From positions 145,650 to 209,649 of the forward strand of contig JAFZLD010000003.1 of NCBI GenBank assembly GCA_017553505.1: DNA of 64,000 nt. The letters run 5' to 3'. Position numbers and translations under genes: made by a program. Below are positions 41,806-64,000 of this stretch, piece after piece. The notes below the pieces were generated by a model that saw only the letters and a program-made list of their open reading frames with translations, ran no database searches and was not told the DNA's origin. The stretch comes from Lachnospiraceae bacterium (GTDB taxonomy: Bacteria; Bacillota; Clostridia; Lachnospirales; Lachnospiraceae). Position 1 is the first letter of the stretch; each line of letters starts with the position of its first letter.

Positions 41806-41822
41806 GTGATATCCAAATAATT

Positions 41823-42070
41823 GCGGCCCGGCGCGGGCAAAAGTCTTTCCCCAAAACCCTCTCCCGCTTCAATCTCACGTAGCGGCCGGTCAGACGCTCC
41901 GTTAAGACTACGGTCTGCCCTACGCAAAAAGTGGTGCTTGAGGGATAGCACAGCCCTTTTTTGCAACTCAAACAGAAGTGTTTTCGTGCATAAGCGGCTT
42001 GAAATACAGCCGCTAAGCGCCGACGCTCCGATAGAGTTTTGGTTAAAGACTTTTGCCCGCGCCGGGCCGC
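41823..42070. repeat. Long palindromic element, copy 1
   Basis: The gap 41773-42079 holds a strong terminator and this 248-base element, no gene. Its ends (41823-41848 and 42045-42070) are perfect 26-bp inverted repeats. The stem continues inward as CCAAAAC with GTTTTGG, a C/A mismatch, then CT/AG; outside, CCAAATA (41813) pairs with TATTTGG (42073). The interior holds several hairpins, for example GCGGCT/AGCCGC at 41993-42013 and a GCG-CCGA-CGC hairpin near 42018. A second copy lies at 46738-46927. Together they behave as a structured family. It lies between convergent genes (OYE, + and GH2, -). Confidence 0.85.
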
Positions 42071-42079
42071 TGTATTTGG

Positions 42080-44548
42080 CTATTTGACTTCGAGGGTTAC
42101 CTCGGCGGAGCCGAGGGCGTCGGAGGAGATGCGGAGGGTGACGGGGCCGGAGGCGTAGCCGGAGCGGAGGACGGCGGTGGCGTGACCTTCATAGGTCACG
42201 GTGCGCTCGTCGGTGTAGAGCTCCTCGGTCACGGGGTTGCCGGTGCCGAAGCCTGCGAGGGCGGCGGGACCGGTGACGGTTGCCGTAAGGGCCACGGAGG
42301 CGTCGGGTACGACGCGTCCTGCGGCGTCTACGACGTCGATGCCTACGAAGGCACAATCGTGACCGTCGGCGGCGAGAGCGGCCTTCTCGGGCGCGAGACG
42401 CAGCGAGACGGCAGGACCGGAGGTCTCAAGCGAGTCGCGACTGACTTCGCGGCCGGCCTTGTAGCATACGACCTCGAGCTTGCCGGGCGCATACGCCGTC
42501 TCGAAGCGAACAGAGTTCGGGTACGGGCGCTCAAGCGACACGGCCTTCCGGCCGACGCTCGCGCCGTTTAAGAACAGCTCCGCCTCCTCGGCACGCGTGA
42601 ATACCACTATCTCCACGGGCTTACCTTCGTAACCCGCATAATTCCACGATTTATACAATTCGGGGAATCCCCACATACTGGTCATTTCAACCTTGCCGAA
42701 GCGCGAAGGATGATATGTATACAAATGTGCCTGCTCACTTCCGAACACTACGCTGCGATAGTCACCCTGCGGACGACGGCGACCCGTAATATCGAAGTCG
42801 GCGTCATTGGCAGTGCGCCAAGGGTACGGCGAAGTGCGGTCGGGCATAATGTCCCAAGGATGCTCGGGGGCATTGGGGTCGCCGGGCTCGGAATACACAG
42901 CCTTGCCGAGTCCCGCCTCGCCGATATAGTCCCACGCAGTCCAAGTGAACTCGCCGATTACGTAAGGAAGCTTCTCCACAAGCGGCCATCTGAAGCCGAT
43001 TTCCTTGGGAAAGTTCTCCGACCCGAGTATCACGCGCTCGGGGAACATCTCATGATCCTTCTCGTACAAATCTTCCATGTAGTTATAACCTACAATATCA
43101 AGCCCATTCGTGAACGGCTCTGTGCAATCCTCCCACACATTCTGAGAGGCGTCGTCGGCAGCATTCTGTGCGCCGTTCTTGCCGGAAGCCATATAATCAT
43201 CAAGCCCGCTCCAGAAGGAACAAATACCGTTGCTGACAGGTCTCGACGGATCCAGCGCCTTAACGGTCGAGGCCAGCTCAGTCGCAACCTTATATCCGTT
43301 GCCAAGTCCGCCACGCTCGGGAATCTCATTGCCCGTAGACCATATAATCACCGAAGGATGCTTCCTGTCGCGCACGACAAAAGAAGTCAGCTCGTCCTTC
43401 CAATGTGCATCGAAGTATTCACTGAAATCGCCGCGCCTCTTCGCAATATTCCAAGCGTCAAACGCCTCATCAAACACATACATACCCACGCGGTCGCACG
43501 CCTCAATAAGCGCCGACGACATAGGATTGTGAGTGGTGCGAATAGCGTTGAAGCCAAGCTCCTTTAACTTCTTAACCTTTCGTAGCTCGCATTCGTACAA
43601 AGAAACCGCGCCGAGCAACCCGTTATCGTGATGCAAGCATCCGCCTTTAAGCTTCACAACCTTACCGTTAATTCTGAGCCCGTGCACAGCATCTGCCGTA
43701 ATGGTACGCACGCCGAAAAGCACAGAGTCTTCATCAACCGACTGTTCCGAAGCCTTCTCAAAGTGCGTCCGATACTCGCCCAAATCGGTGACAACCGCCT
43801 TAACCCTGTATAAATTGGGCGATTCGGCATCCCACAGCGCAGGATTCTTCAGATTCACAACCATGTAAGCTGTCTCGCAGTCACGCGGATTGACCTGAAT
43901 CACACGCGAAACGATAGCATCGGCAACACCGGCCTCTGAACCTTCTTTGAAGAAGCTCAGTGACACCCGCACCAGTCTGTTCGAAATCGTTTCATTTGCC
44001 ACATCAACGCGTGCCTCAAGAAACGCATAACCGTCAGAAATTTCACGAGTATACACAAACACACCGTCAGGCTTAATATGAACCCGGGGAGAGTGGCACA
44101 GATTCACTCCCCTGAAAAGTCCGTTACCCGTATACCAGCGCGACCCCGGACGCTCCTCGGTACTTGTATTTATAGTAATTCTGTTTTCTTCGCCAAAAGA
44201 AACATAATTCGTCAAATCCACATAAAAAGGCGTATATCCGTAATGGTGCGTAGCCACCCTGCAACCGTTCACATCAACCGTCGCATTCATCATGGCCCCG
44301 TCAAGATACAGCCCCACGCATTCGTCCTTCCATTCCGCGGGAATCGTCACAAACTTCGTGTAATTTACCATTCCGCCCACGAAATAACCGCTGTCCACGC
44401 TCGCCGGCGCATCGGGACGCACCTTCGTGGAAATCATCCCGTCATGCGGCAGATTGACCACCTCGCCCGCATCCGCATTCATCATTCCAAGCGAATCCAG
44501 ATACCCTCTTCTGAAAGTCCAGCTTTCGTCAATACATATTTTTCTCAT
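42080..44548 (-). CDS. GH2 glycoside hydrolase (beta-galactosidase/beta-glucuronidase type)
   Basis: 822 residues: N-terminal sugar-binding jelly roll, an Ig-like domain, then a TIM barrel. The acid/base Glu is in IWSTGNEIPERGG, and the nucleophile Glu in YVIGEFTWTAWDYIGEAG. The later HAEELFLNGASVGRK-like part and the last 100 residues form Ig-like beta domains typical of GH2 enzymes with the DUF4982 type of tail. No signal peptide, so it acts in the cytosol. The exact linkage (beta-galactoside, glucuronide or mannoside) is not resolved by eye. I chose the ATG at 44548 because GGGAGAG lies seven bases before it; the frame stays open for 45 further codons. The C-terminal 170 codons are strikingly GC-rich compared with the rest of the gene. 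Confidence 0.9.
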   Translation of the reverse strand: MRKICIDESWTFRRGYLDSLGMMNADAGEVVNLPHDGMISTKVRPDAPASVDSGYFVGGMVNYTKFVTIPAEWKDECVGLYLDGAMMNATVDVNGCRVATHHYGYTPFYVDLTNYVSFGEENRITINTSTEERPGSRWYTGNGLFRGVNLCHSPRVHIKPDGVFVYTREISDGYAFLEARVDVANETISNRLVRVSLSFFKEGSEAGVADAIVSRVIQVNPRDCETAYMVVNLKNPALWDAESPNLYRVKAVVTDLGEYRTHFEKASEQSVDEDSVLFGVRTITADAVHGLRINGKVVKLKGGCLHHDNGLLGAVSLYECELRKVKKLKELGFNAIRTTHNPMSSALIEACDRVGMYVFDEAFDAWNIAKRRGDFSEYFDAHWKDELTSFVVRDRKHPSVIIWSTGNEIPERGGLGNGYKVATELASTVKALDPSRPVSNGICSFWSGLDDYMASGKNGAQNAADDASQNVWEDCTEPFTNGLDIVGYNYMEDLYEKDHEMFPERVILGSENFPKEIGFRWPLVEKLPYVIGEFTWTAWDYIGEAGLGKAVYSEPGDPNAPEHPWDIMPDRTSPYPWRTANDADFDITGRRRPQGDYRSVVFGSEQAHLYTYHPSRFGKVEMTSMWGFPELYKSWNYAGYEGKPVEIVVFTRAEEAELFLNGASVGRKAVSLERPYPNSVRFETAYAPGKLEVVCYKAGREVSRDSLETSGPAVSLRLAPEKAALAADGHDCAFVGIDVVDAAGRVVPDASVALTATVTGPAALAGFGTGNPVTEELYTDERTVTYEGHATAVLRSGYASGPVTLRISSDALGSAEVTLEVK

Positions 44549-46737: not shown

Positions 46738-46927
46738 GCGGTTCGCCCCGGGCAAAAGGCTTTCCCCAAAACCCTCTCCCGCTTCGATCTCGTGTAGCGG
46801 CTAAGGTGCCGACACTGCGATAGAGCCGGAATAAGACAAAGAGCCTTATTCGAAGGCGACCGATAATAAAGCACGCAGTGGTTTATTATAGAGTTTTGGC
46901 GAAAGCCTTTTGCCCGGGGCGAACCGC
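46738..46927. repeat. Long palindromic element, copy 2
   Basis: A 190-base element with perfect 26-bp inverted ends (46738-46763 and 46902-46927). Copy 1 and copy 2 share the sequence around CCCAAAACCCTCTCCCGCTT and GTAGCGGC, and the tail CGATAGAG, in the same orientation. The outer arms differ at five positions between the copies, and every one is matched by a compensating change on the opposite arm. The inner C/A mismatch (46773/46892) occurs at the same place in both. The interior adds its own hairpins (GAATAAG/CTTATTC, ATAATAAA/TTTATTAT) at places where copy 1 has different ones. Confidence 0.85.
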
Positions 46928-46978: not shown

Positions 46979-47179
46979 AAGCCCGGCGGAGAAATATAAA
47001 GGCAGGGGGCGTATGGTCGGCGGAAGCAAATAAAAAACCATAGACTTCGCGCATGAAGTTTAAGCGGTAGCGGTTCGGGCGGCCTCGTCTTTATAGCCCG
47101 AATAAACAAGATGCCCGTAAAACTTTCTTTTGCGTGAGTCCGGCCTAGAACAATGCCTTTATATTTCTTCGCCGGGCTT
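46979..47179. repeat. Third long palindrome (unrelated arm sequence)
   Basis: The gap 46721-47288 has no gene; after copy 2 it holds this 201-base structure. Arms 46979-47004 and 47154-47179 pair over 26 bp, with one deviation (G46989 against T47169) that is a G-U pair only in an RNA of the plus strand. Inside are at least three hairpins: TATGGT/ACCATA (47012/47037), ACTTC/GAAGT and TTCGGGC/GCCCGAA. A long A/T-rich stretch with T7 follows. The flagellar promoter lies 36 bases beyond. Confidence 0.75.
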
Positions 47180-61223: not shown

Positions 61224-61311
61224 ATAATACACATGAGATGTAACATCTCGAAACTATGAACATGGTGGACTCTTAAGACGCACGGATTAAGCTCCATCGC
61301 ACAAACTTTAA

Positions 61312-61327
61312 GCGACAAGGATGTCGC
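61312..61327 (+). promoter_or_regulatory. CsrA-type hairpin in the first flagellin leader
   Basis: A perfect 6-bp stem, GCGACA with TGTCGC, presents AGGA in the loop. The stretch ACAAGGATGT equals the core of the known CsrA selection consensus (ACARGGAUGU). The ribosome site CAAGGAGG, a second GGA site, follows 17 bases on; two-site binding is the known mode at hag in Bacillus. Confidence 0.8.
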
Positions 61328-61359
61328 GCATTACACATATTTTCAAGGAGGAAAATAAT

Positions 61360-62607
61360 ATGGTAGTACAACACAATTTAACAGCGATGAACTCTAACAG
61401 AATGTTAGGCATCACATCCAAGTCACAGGCCAAGGCTACAGAGAAGCTTTCATCCGGTTACAAGATTAACCGAGCAGCTGACGATGCAGCAGGCTTATCT
61501 ATTTCCGAAAAAATGCGTAAGCAGATCAGAGGTCTTACACAGGCTTCCGCTAACGCTCAGGACGGTATCTCAGCAGTTCAGACAGCAGAAGGTGCACTTA
61601 CAGAAGTACACGATATGCTTCAGCGTATGAACGAACTTGCAGTTAAGGCTGCAAACGGCACTAACAGTAAAGACGACCGTGATTATATCCAGGCCGAAGT
61701 TGACCAGTTAGTAACCGAAATCGATCGTGTATCAACCACCACAAAGTTCAATGAAACATATTTGTTAAAGGGTACCAACGGTACTGAACCCGGTAAGCTT
61801 ACTTTCGCTACTGCTAAGACTGAACTTGGACTTGGTAATGCAGTAAACTTTGACAGCGACGGTATCGTTACCACAGATACTAAGTCAGCAGATCAGGGTT
61901 CAACAGGTGCTGCTACAACAGGTCAGATGGCAGTTAACACTGTAACTATTAATTCTGTTACATATGCTTATTTACATTCATTTGAAAAAGGCACAGCAGA
62001 TACCGGTCTTAAGACTGAAGATGAATTGGTAGACGCTTATAAGACTGCAAATGCTACAACAAAGACATTTACAGACATAAATAAGTTCGCAGCAGCAATT
62101 AAAGCTGATAACGGCAAGGCAGTTAAAGACGTTACAGCAAGCATCAATGATGATGATAAAATCGATCTTAAGCTTACTGCATTCTCAGACCTCAACAAGG
62201 GTCTTGATGTAAGCTTACACGTAGGCGCTGATTCTACTAAGGACAACAAGATTGGTCTTACAATCGAAATGATGTCCGCTAGAGGTCTCAACGTTAACGG
62301 TATCAGAGTTGACGGCGCAGACGATACCAATGCTACAAAGGCTATCGACACCATCAAGGCTGCAATCCAGAAGGTATCCGAGCAAAGATCTGCTCTCGGT
62401 GCTGTTCAGAACAGACTTGATCACACCATCAACAACCTTGACAACGTTGTAGAGAACACCACAAGTGCTGAATCTGCTATCCGTGATACAGATATGGCTA
62501 CTCAGATGGTAAGCTACTCTAACAACAACATCCTTGCACAGGCAGGACAGGCAATGCTTGCACAGGCTAACCAGTCTAACCAGGGCGTACTTAGCTTACT
62601 TGGTTAA
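61360..62607 (+). CDS. fliC: Flagellin, first copy
   Basis: 415 residues. The N-terminal D0/D1 region starts MVVQHNLTAMNSNRMLG and includes KLSSGYKINRAADDAAGLSISEKMRKQIRGL (in pieces). The C-terminal D1/D0 region ends RDTDMATQMVSYSNNNILAQAGQAMLAQANQSNQGVLSLL. The middle (about 150-310) is Thr- and Ala-rich and unlike the second copy, as expected of the exposed domain. The true start is the ATG at 61360 with CAAGGAGG eight bases ahead; an in-frame ATG 39 bases upstream lies before the ribosome site. FliS, FliW and CsrA genes lie upstream. Expression is likely set by sigma-28 and CsrA. Confidence 0.95.
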   Translation: MVVQHNLTAMNSNRMLGITSKSQAKATEKLSSGYKINRAADDAAGLSISEKMRKQIRGLTQASANAQDGISAVQTAEGALTEVHDMLQRMNELAVKAANGTNSKDDRDYIQAEVDQLVTEIDRVSTTTKFNETYLLKGTNGTEPGKLTFATAKTELGLGNAVNFDSDGIVTTDTKSADQGSTGAATTGQMAVNTVTINSVTYAYLHSFEKGTADTGLKTEDELVDAYKTANATTKTFTDINKFAAAIKADNGKAVKDVTASINDDDKIDLKLTAFSDLNKGLDVSLHVGADSTKDNKIGLTIEMMSARGLNVNGIRVDGADDTNATKAIDTIKAAIQKVSEQRSALGAVQNRLDHTINNLDNVVENTTSAESAIRDTDMATQMVSYSNNNILAQAGQAMLAQANQSNQGVLSLLG

Positions 62608-62634
62608 GTAAAAAGTTCTAACTTATGGTCCTAT

Positions 62635-62658
62635 CCGCCTCCTCTTCGGAGGGGGCGG
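62635..62658 (+). other. UUCG-capped hairpin after the first flagellin gene
   Basis: A 10-bp stem closes the stable C(UUCG)G tetraloop. The sequence after it (TTAATGGG) has no T run, so complete termination is doubtful; it may protect the 3' end of the flagellin mRNA while letting some transcripts read into the second copy. Confidence 0.65.
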
Positions 62659-62677
62659 TTAATGGGATAGATTTATC

Positions 62678-62726
62678 CCCTGCTATTACTAAGGCAGATA
62701 CCTTGAAGGCCTTAGTAATGGCAGGG
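62678..62726 (+). other. 18-bp stem-loop in the flagellin intergenic leader
   Basis: The arms 62678-62695 and 62709-62726 pair over 18 bp with one T-G (U-G) pair, around a 13-base loop. Together with the UUCG hairpin and the CsrA-type hairpin this makes the 226-base gap highly structured. No sigma-28 promoter is visible in it, so the second flagellin may be read from the first promoter. Confidence 0.6.
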
Positions 62727-62785
62727 AACATTTCCCGGCGAGGGGCGTGCGACTCTGGCCATTACAACTTAATACGGTAACAAAA

Positions 62786-62801
62786 GCGACATGGAAGTCG
62801 T
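62786..62801 (+). promoter_or_regulatory. CsrA-type hairpin in the second flagellin leader
   Basis: GCGAC pairs with GTCGT (one G-U pair) and presents ATGGAA in the loop. The following leader and ribosome site (CAAGGAGG) are the same as in the first flagellin gene. Confidence 0.65.
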
Positions 62802-62833
62802 GTAACACACATATTTTCAAGGAGGAAAATAAC

Positions 62834-64000
62834 ATGGTAGTACAACACAATTTAACAGCAATGAACTCCAACAGAATGTTGGGAATCACTTCAAAGTCAC
62901 AGGCTAAGGCAACAGAAAAGCTTTCATCCGGTTACAAGATTAACCGTGCAGCTGATGACGCAGCAGGCTTATCAATTTCCGAAAAGATGCGTAAGCAGAT
63001 CAGAGGTCTTACACAGGCTTCAGCTAACGCTCAGGACGGTATTTCAGCAGTACAGACAGCAGAAGGTGCACTCACAGAAGTACACGATATGCTTCAGAGA
63101 ATGAACGAGCTTGCAGTTAAGGCAGCTAACGGAACCAATTCTCAGGATGACCGTGATTACATCCAGGCAGAAGTTAACCAGCTTGTAACAGAAATCGATC
63201 GTGTATCCACAACAACCAAGTTCAACGAGACTTATTTGTTAAAGGGTACCAACGGAACCGAACCCGGTAAGCTTACCTATGTTAAGGCCGGCACAGTTGA
63301 TGGACTTTCTGAAGCAGGTCTTCTTGCAGGTGATGGCGTTGAGAAGATTACCGGCGATGATGGCGATTCTGTAACTGCAGCAGCAACAGGTCAGTATACT
63401 ACTAAGAAGATTGAGTTAGGTGGCAAGGAATTTCACTATGTTGATTCTTTCACAAAGGGAACAAATGCCGATGCTAAATCTTTACAGGATATCGTAGCTG
63501 ATCTTAACAAGAACAGCGGCACCACAAATAAGTTCTATGCTACCGATATGAGTAAGCTTGGCGAACTTATTAAGAGAGAGAACACTGCAGACGTTAAGAA
63601 TGCAAGTGTTGACCTTGAAGGTACAACGCTCGTTGCTAAAGTTTCTGCATTCGCAGATCTTAACAAGGGCCTTGATATGAGTCTCCATGTAGGTGCTGAC
63701 TCTACTAAGGATAACAAGATTGGTCTTACAATCGAGAACTTATCCGCAAGAGGTCTTGGCATTAACGGACTTGAAGTGAACGGCGCTGACGATAGCAAGG
63801 CAACAAAGGCTATCGACACCATCAAGGCTGCAATCCAGAAGGTATCCGAACAGCGTTCAGCTCTCGGTGCAGTTCAGAACAGACTTGATCACACTATCAA
63901 CAACCTTGACAACGTTGTAGAGAACACCACAAGTGCTGAATCTGCTATCCGTGATACAGATATGGCTACTCAGATGGTAAGCTACTCTAACAACAACATC
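62834..64000 (+). CDS. fliC: Flagellin, second copy (cut by window end)
   Basis: 389 residues are visible; the frame is open at the window edge. The first 150 residues are nearly identical to the first flagellin (same MVVQHNLTAMNSNRMLG start and the SGYKINRAADDAAGLS block), and the D1/D0 C-terminal part after about residue 330 is also nearly the same. The central region (about 155-320) is different, so the pair arose by duplication with divergence of the exposed domain or by conversion of the ends. The ATG has the same CAAGGAGG site, and a CsrA-type hairpin precedes it. The last few residues and the terminator lie outside. Confidence 0.95.
   Translation, partial: MVVQHNLTAMNSNRMLGITSKSQAKATEKLSSGYKINRAADDAAGLSISEKMRKQIRGLTQASANAQDGISAVQTAEGALTEVHDMLQRMNELAVKAANGTNSQDDRDYIQAEVNQLVTEIDRVSTTTKFNETYLLKGTNGTEPGKLTYVKAGTVDGLSEAGLLAGDGVEKITGDDGDSVTAAATGQYTTKKIELGGKEFHYVDSFTKGTNADAKSLQDIVADLNKNSGTTNKFYATDMSKLGELIKRENTADVKNASVDLEGTTLVAKVSAFADLNKGLDMSLHVGADSTKDNKIGLTIENLSARGLGINGLEVNGADDSKATKAIDTIKAAIQKVSEQRSALGAVQNRLDHTINNLDNVVENTTSAESAIRDTDMATQMVSYSNNNI

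Follow-up and report, generated by a model that had tools for sequence, protein, structure and literature searches.

A mobile, MITE-like element of Lachnospiraceae with a conserved RNA fold in its interior

Introduction

Among the closest described systems are the REP/BIME elements, which are dispersed intergenic palindromes present in many copies, and the HEARO (RF02033) and IS605-orfB-I (RF03065) RNAs, structured RNAs that are tied to mobile DNA. A third is TwoAYGGAY (RF01731), an RNA that has AYGGAY loops. TwoAYGGAY is given as a structured RNA of unknown function from the human gut, gamma-Proteobacteria and Clostridiales (PMC2864571), and as a proposed CsrA-binding sRNA, the stem of which has tandem GA pairs (PMC4333381).

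Here, we describe an element that occurs twice in a 64-kb window, i.e., the whole stretch of 64,000 nt that was analyzed, from the genome of a Lachnospiraceae bacterium (G000, 3.13 Mb). The element is mobile, and its interior core is kept across genera as one covarying RNA fold while its arms and ends vary. We believe that it is probably a MITE-like, non-coding and non-autonomous element of the Lachnospiraceae, which carries a conserved folded RNA and is moved in trans.

Results and discussion

The two copies in the window and their relatives

An initial annotation of the window had pointed out two long palindromes, and both of these are real. Copy 1 (41823-42070) has arms of 41 nt at 41823-41863 and 42030-42070 that are 90% complementary, and copy 2 (46738-46927) has arms of 38 nt at 46738-46775 and 46890-46927 that are 95% complementary. 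In each copy, the outer 26 nt pair perfectly, and the 5 positions at which the arms of the two copies differ (5, 6, 9, 11 and 22 from the outside) are all compensated in the opposite arm, as had been annotated. Chance palindromes are ruled out by the fold z-scores (-9.19 for copy 1 and -10.73 for copy 2, with 0 of 200 dinucleotide shuffles as good in either case), together with the covariation across 68 aligned rows relative to shuffled and slid controls (see below).

The core fold lies on the minus strand of the window, which we refer to as the RNA strand. It consists of a long stem P2 formed by the arms, a three-way junction, a stem P3 capped by the apical hairpin P4, whose loop is mostly GUAUUUU within a core CUUAG-GUAUUUU-CUUAUG, and a mini-hairpin P5 with the consensus AG-C/U-GNRA-G/A-CG on the RNA strand; this anatomy was made plain by compact relatives of about 141 nt. 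In copy 1, the 5' strand of P2 is the right arm (42030..42070, minus) and its 3' strand the left arm (41823..41863, minus). The conserved P4 with the top of P3 is found at 41986..42020 on the minus strand by our covariance model R1 (30.3 bits, E 1.8e-6). The GNRA loop of P5, which reads GGGA on the minus strand, is placed at 41862..41865 from the sequence and the alignments. An extra hairpin module (minus strand, 41884..41985, with approximate borders drawn by comparison with the compact relatives, from which it is missing) interrupts the 3' strand of P3, and is typical of the host genus. Based on the models and on sequence comparison, copy 2 (46738..46927, minus) is the same element, having lost P4 and gained a 70-bp repeat; the rebuilt model R2 matches its minus strand over the length of the copy (38.7 bits, E 1.1e-7), and its plus strand more weakly (25.9 bits, E 1.2e-4).

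The informative RNA strand is the opposite of the one on which the palindromes had originally been read, and two of the earlier details change with it. What had been taken for an inner C/A mismatch turns out to be a G.U pair when the RNA strand is read. The short covarying hairpin described as GCG-CCGA-CGC in copy 1 and GTG-CCGA-CAC in copy 2 is not conserved; in the family consensus, its bases are part of stem P3, their partners being on the side of the element that contains TAGCGGC (by inspection, GCGU/ACGU in copy 1 and GUGU/ACAC in copy 2).

Covariance-model searches found further copies in the host genome, its sister genomes and many other Lachnospiraceae. The element is present at 12 places in G000, copies 1 and 2 included, and a DNA-level search gave 22 matches in sister genome G013 and 5 in G002, the 3 genomes with such a match among the 18 of the genus. 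Model R2 fits at least 8 copies of these 3 genomes over its full length. Among the copies of G000, the matched core parts are 88-95% identical to copy 1. In these and in the copies read from G013 and G002, arms that are wholly different between copies (ATGAATGCTGAAAGTATTTT vs CAAGCGCCGGGGGCCGGCCGGCATTGT) still pair almost perfectly, in a count that left out copies without a second arm in reach (mostly owing to contig ends or long inserts). Hairpin repeats consisting of TTATCCCAATATGAAAAAA and its complement were also seen nested in or beside copies of the element (L114 2172-2400, L105 1651-1808, L103 5171-5401).

Covariation and strand

Covariation was assessed in two alignments. The 68-row alignment was fitted to the covariance model and thereby favours the model structure and G.U pairs, a bias of which the 18-row MAFFT alignment of compact relatives, made without structure, is free. 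The consensus structure of the 18-row alignment contains 43 pairs, 29 of which have changed on both sides; for the 68-row alignment, RNAalifold gives 52 pairs, 49 of them changed on both sides. Compensatory changes across the shared structure, as looked for in a structured RNA, are present in both. When the 43-pair model structure is applied to the 68-row alignment, 95.6% of cells are paired, compared with 63.4% in shuffled and 24-43% in slid controls, and the covariation score is 0.828, compared with 0.213 for shuffled and at most 0.139 for slid controls. One of 5 measures, the number of further pair types, was not above the shuffles, 69 of 500 of which reach the observed value.

Arms that change much and yet remain nearly perfect could also arise without any selection, if template-switch repair kept long palindromes perfect so that the arms changed together without function. 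We consider this extremely improbable, considering that mismatched internal loops and the GNRA loop have been conserved rather than repaired into a perfect palindrome, and that the core sequence is conserved across genera. In our reading, the arms covary because selection keeps the helices and not the letters.

The loop of P5 is a GNRA tetraloop in all 67 rows of the 68-row alignment that have letters there (one row is gapped), with 6 different sequences (GAGA 33, GAAA 16, GCAA 9, GCGA 6, GGGA 2, GGAA 1). On the RNA strand, this alignment contains 90 G.U cells versus 21 A.C cells when one near-constant G.U pair is left out; we prefer this count to an earlier one on the strand of the initial annotation (A.C 37 vs G.U 19 distinct contexts), the alignments behind which were polluted by flanking sequence. 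Model R1 likewise prefers the RNA strand, with scores of up to 155 bits versus at most 36 bits on the other strand. Long palindromes and mobility would also suit a hairpin at the DNA level, in which a folded single DNA strand is recognized by a recombinase (HUH/Y1, integron-type or other), and strand-specific folding of single-stranded DNA would be expected to favour G.T over A.C as well. We nevertheless hold such a role to be decidedly unlikely: the GNRA rule and the conserved internal loops are RNA signatures, the G.U excess does not point toward a DNA-level role, and the divergent pairs described below put the folds on opposite strands.

Distribution

At an E-value of 0.001, model R1 matches 125 of 299 Lachnospiraceae genomes (101 of the 246 good ones), representing 124 of 298 genera, and at least 10 matches are found in 36 of these 125. 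In a sample of 398 genomes from the phylum, 6 are matched, 4 of which belong to the Lachnospiraceae; the 2 matches outside the family are weaker (E 2.8e-8 and 4e-4). Both searches used stricter filters, by which weak matches are lost.

A separate search with the core pattern gave 42 stretches. Eight of these were set aside as unrelated after reading (4 from Raoultella, 2 from Enterobacter, 1 from Psychromonas and 1 from a Prevotellaceae MAG), and 34 were kept, including a partial one (L143). Matches come from Lachnospiraceae bacterium YSD2013, the MAGs RGIG6987 (rumen), RUG335, RUG170 and RGIG8260, Lactobacillus rogosae ATCC 27753, several Clostridia MAGs, and Mediterraneibacter agrestimuris (the partial match). 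The M. agrestimuris stretch (L143 5880-6105) has two P4-like hairpins in a spacer, the genes on either side of which are, by reading, secY-like and adk-like. The exact core pattern was found in 0 stretches of viral_contigs, and a phage-borne element is not backed by this set.

With a simple ORF caller, 66 of the 68 aligned copies fall outside ORFs, and their orientation to the neighbouring genes is mixed, which does not favour a cis-regulatory leader.

Mobility and ends of the element

The orthologous site in G013 is empty: the sequences that flank copy 1 in G000 adjoin each other there. The junction reads GTGC-TA-TTTGAC in G013 and GTGA-TA-[TCCAAATA...TATTTGGC]-TA-TTTGAC in G000, one base beside the TA being different. 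This comparison, the one place at which a clean empty site was read, indicates that the element brought its arms with it, and fits a duplication of TA (41810-41811 and 42081-42082); it also rules out, for copy 1, that the arms derive from a pre-existing target hairpin, as the empty site has no such hairpin. The entire inserted element extends over about 41812..42080, with its RNA on the minus strand, so that the borders originally annotated for copy 1 were too narrow, and its terminal inverted repeats are short (7/8 bp). At the C7 locus, clean empty sites were not found in 6 further genomes of the genus.

Similar copies at different sites are also seen in another genus. In G070, a closely similar element occurs at 7 sites (L240-L245, L247), 6 of which have it as part of a composite about 0.5 kb long, and the copies at L240 and L242 are virtually identical in different surroundings. 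A terminal repeat, GGNNATTGCGAAAC, which forms an outer stem P1, is common to several genera and was seen in copies from G070, G093, G129 and G186. Of 65 distinct cores, 23 have the repeat at both ends. A TA lies to the left of 13 of these 23 elements and to the right of 17, and 11 have it at both ends; the other 12 lack TA at one end or both. At copy 1, a TA duplication fits. Short inverted pairs with the same repeats at their ends, some with one mismatch, were seen as well; they span 55-76 bp and leave no room for the RNA core (G129 C5:10022-10083, C27:18075-18132 and C1:11862-11937; G206 C24:14713-14788; G093 C24:19662-19716).

Taken together, the empty site, the closely similar composites at different sites and the inverted repeats, often with TA beside them, show that the element is mobile. 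The initial annotation had offered a structured RNA and a non-autonomous mobile element as separate options; the covariation and GNRA loops back the former, the empty site and the similar copies at different sites back the latter, and our results support that the two hold together, the RNA being inside the element.

As for what moves the element, an IS630-type transposase is not backed, since PF13358 (DDE_3) was found in 0 of 7 carrier genomes; of 14 control genomes, 3 gave a match to it. No inward-facing pair of terminal repeats at the spacing of a transposon was noticed among the listed matches of G093 and G129, whose genomes are in pieces. Movement through an RNA intermediate would be in keeping with this absence of DDE_3, and also with an interior that is conserved across genera while the arms and outer ends vary: in such a bacterial SINE-like system, a reverse transcriptase would copy the RNA, the copy would be inserted at TA, and the terminal repeat would simply be stem P1, by which the RNA is closed. 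Even so, several genera share a conserved GGNNATTGCGAAAC, which is also found at the ends of the 55-76-bp pairs, as expected of a DNA transposase, and we regard the SINE-like route as very unlikely. For the MITE-like element that we favour, the repeats and TA flanks suggest that a TA-duplicating enzyme moves it in trans.

Neighbouring elements

Matches that lie within 1 kb of each other are arranged divergently at 10 loci (G041/L211, G141 (two), G090/L214, G202 (two), G070 (once as a composite, and at L246), G295/L261 and G304), directly at 3 (G145/L255, G186/L259 and G304) and convergently at 0, among the matches listed. The pair in the window follows the divergent pattern, with the element described so far (element A) on the minus strand, and a companion, element B (46979..47179), on the plus strand. 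Element B, which follows copy 2 in the plus-strand direction, has covarying arms of its own and a GC-GGAA-GC motif on the plus strand; GC-GNRA-GC is found on the plus strand of 7 of 10 copies. It is missing at the copy-2 site in G013 and G002, although the junction is not clean. Rfam gave no match over element B in the window or the scanned loci, and model R1 does not back the idea that element B is simply another copy of element A.

Element B is about 200 nt long with a very conserved core, and adjoins element A at several sites; further copies lie at L006 1759-1961, L118 1782-1984, and L119 1970-2169 and 6056-6258. The A-B composite of G000 (L006 1494-1961) is opposite in orientation to those of G013 and G002 (L111 2074-2442, L119 1970-2430). 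At this locus, the upstream flank is 96-98% identical and the arms are different, which may reflect an inversion in place or separate insertions.

The 70-bp repeat within copy 2 (repeat C, 46820..46893, no strand assigned) was recognized from its sequence matches in the rest of the genome. It has the form GAGCCGGAATAAG..CTTATTCGAAGGCGACCGATAATAAA..TTTATTATA, contains two compensated hairpins, is bordered in copy 2 by a repeated ATAGAG, and is dispersed, being in tandem in one place; copies in G000 include C20:52850, C5:41270, C18:59203 and 59272, C17:32766 and others. Elsewhere in the window, near its end (61310-63929), 300-nt blocks occur in two pairs, with identities of 92% and 84% and a spacing of about 1.47 kb; they are perhaps duplicated genes.

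TwoAYGGAY is found divergent to the new RNA in two genera, at a distance of 147-243 nt: in G070 (L234 1092-1258, E 2.5e-17), and in G075 (L210 1788-1881), where the match is weak (E 0.013 and 0.07) and cut off by the end of the locus. In the scanned loci, RF01731 matches beside the element and not on the element itself.

The presence of a proposed CsrA-binding sRNA in this position would suit a regulatory RNA that is useful to the host, e.g., by sequestering an RNA-binding protein, and that is spread by MITEs, the element being only its vehicle. This overlaps with our preferred explanation, the difference being whom the RNA serves. The copy-2 site, at which all 3 species (G000, G013 and G002) have element A, also speaks for it. 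The arms are identical between G000 and G013, with a different interior in G013, and G002 differs from both at 6 of 16 positions of the outer arm, 5 of which are compensated, suggesting selection in place; the compensation originally noted between copies 1 and 2 extends to nearly all arm changes in further copies, apart from one uncompensated change in G002. On the other side, the RNA has no fixed relation to genes or strand, and its presence varies, with 15 of 18 genomes of the genus lacking a DNA-level match (the RNA model does match one of the 15, G017, at 4 places) and 174 of 299 genomes of the family lacking a model match. We therefore judge a host-serving RNA to be somewhat unlikely, and retain the non-autonomous element with an RNA inside it as the preferred explanation.

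Proposed role of the RNA

The RNA fold has persisted from genus to genus, although arms and ends drift, which suggests that something binds it. The binding partner may be a protein, either a transposase or a host factor, and its binding would help the element to persist or spread. Within the fold, the GNRA loop of P5 may dock into the conserved internal loop UUA/UUAU between P3 and P4, which resembles known tetraloop receptors.

A bolder version, which we consider unlikely, is that the folded RNA itself is needed for mobility. Here, outward-facing RNAs with GNRA loops (A with A', B or TwoAYGGAY) would recruit a transposase or reverse transcriptase, and what is conserved and defines the element in more than 100 genera would be the fold rather than the terminal repeats. 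Genomes like G070, with their closely similar copies, provide a ready system to ask whether the mobility of a DNA element needs an RNA fold.

A fold that is present in 124 of 298 sampled Lachnospiraceae genera, in at least 10 copies in many genomes, and that has no match above threshold in Rfam 15, means that the RNA annotation of major bacteria of the gut and rumen has a large gap. The element also reverses the usual logic of MITEs, in that the ends vary between lineages and the folded interior is kept, and it places the orphan RNA TwoAYGGAY beside mobile DNA.

Comparison with known families

The initial annotation had matched the palindromes to no known family, and this holds for Rfam 15: at gathering score, the 64-kb window yields one tRNA only and no match over the element. 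At relaxed E-values, Spy1186876 (0.063), SNORA21 (0.62), mir-71 (1.3) and GlsR17 (1.6) overlap copies in the scanned loci, and two further scans gave none over the copies; we take these weak matches as chance, and as all of them are far below gathering score, a known Rfam family is ruled out at threshold. No description of the element came up in literature listings or in the accessible parts of PMC11701678, PMC2864571, PMC4333381 and PMC8040213, although it may be an unnamed entry among the 3161 candidate RNAs in the supplement of the last.

The element is MITE-like in that it is short and gene-free, has terminal inverted repeats, often has TA on both sides, occurs in several copies and has an empty site. 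It differs from MITEs of the Tc1/mariner-IS630 type in that its interior, and not its ends, is conserved across genera and folds as RNA, and in that DDE_3 is absent from the 7 carriers. With REP/BIME it shares being palindromic, dispersed between genes and present in many copies, but it is longer, has terminal repeats, and combines a strand-specific fold and GNRA loop with stem covariation throughout the family. TwoAYGGAY differs by the tandem GA pairs described for its stem, which are not a feature of the new RNA, and by its AYGGAY loops, which the new RNA does not have. Like HEARO and IS605-orfB-I, the element ties a structured RNA to mobile DNA; it is set apart from these by the lack of an Rfam match at threshold, by its terminal inverted repeats and divergent pairs, and by the fact that no associated gene was noticed in the loci that were read. 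In light of these comparisons, the element appears to represent a class of mobile structured RNA that has not been recorded before.
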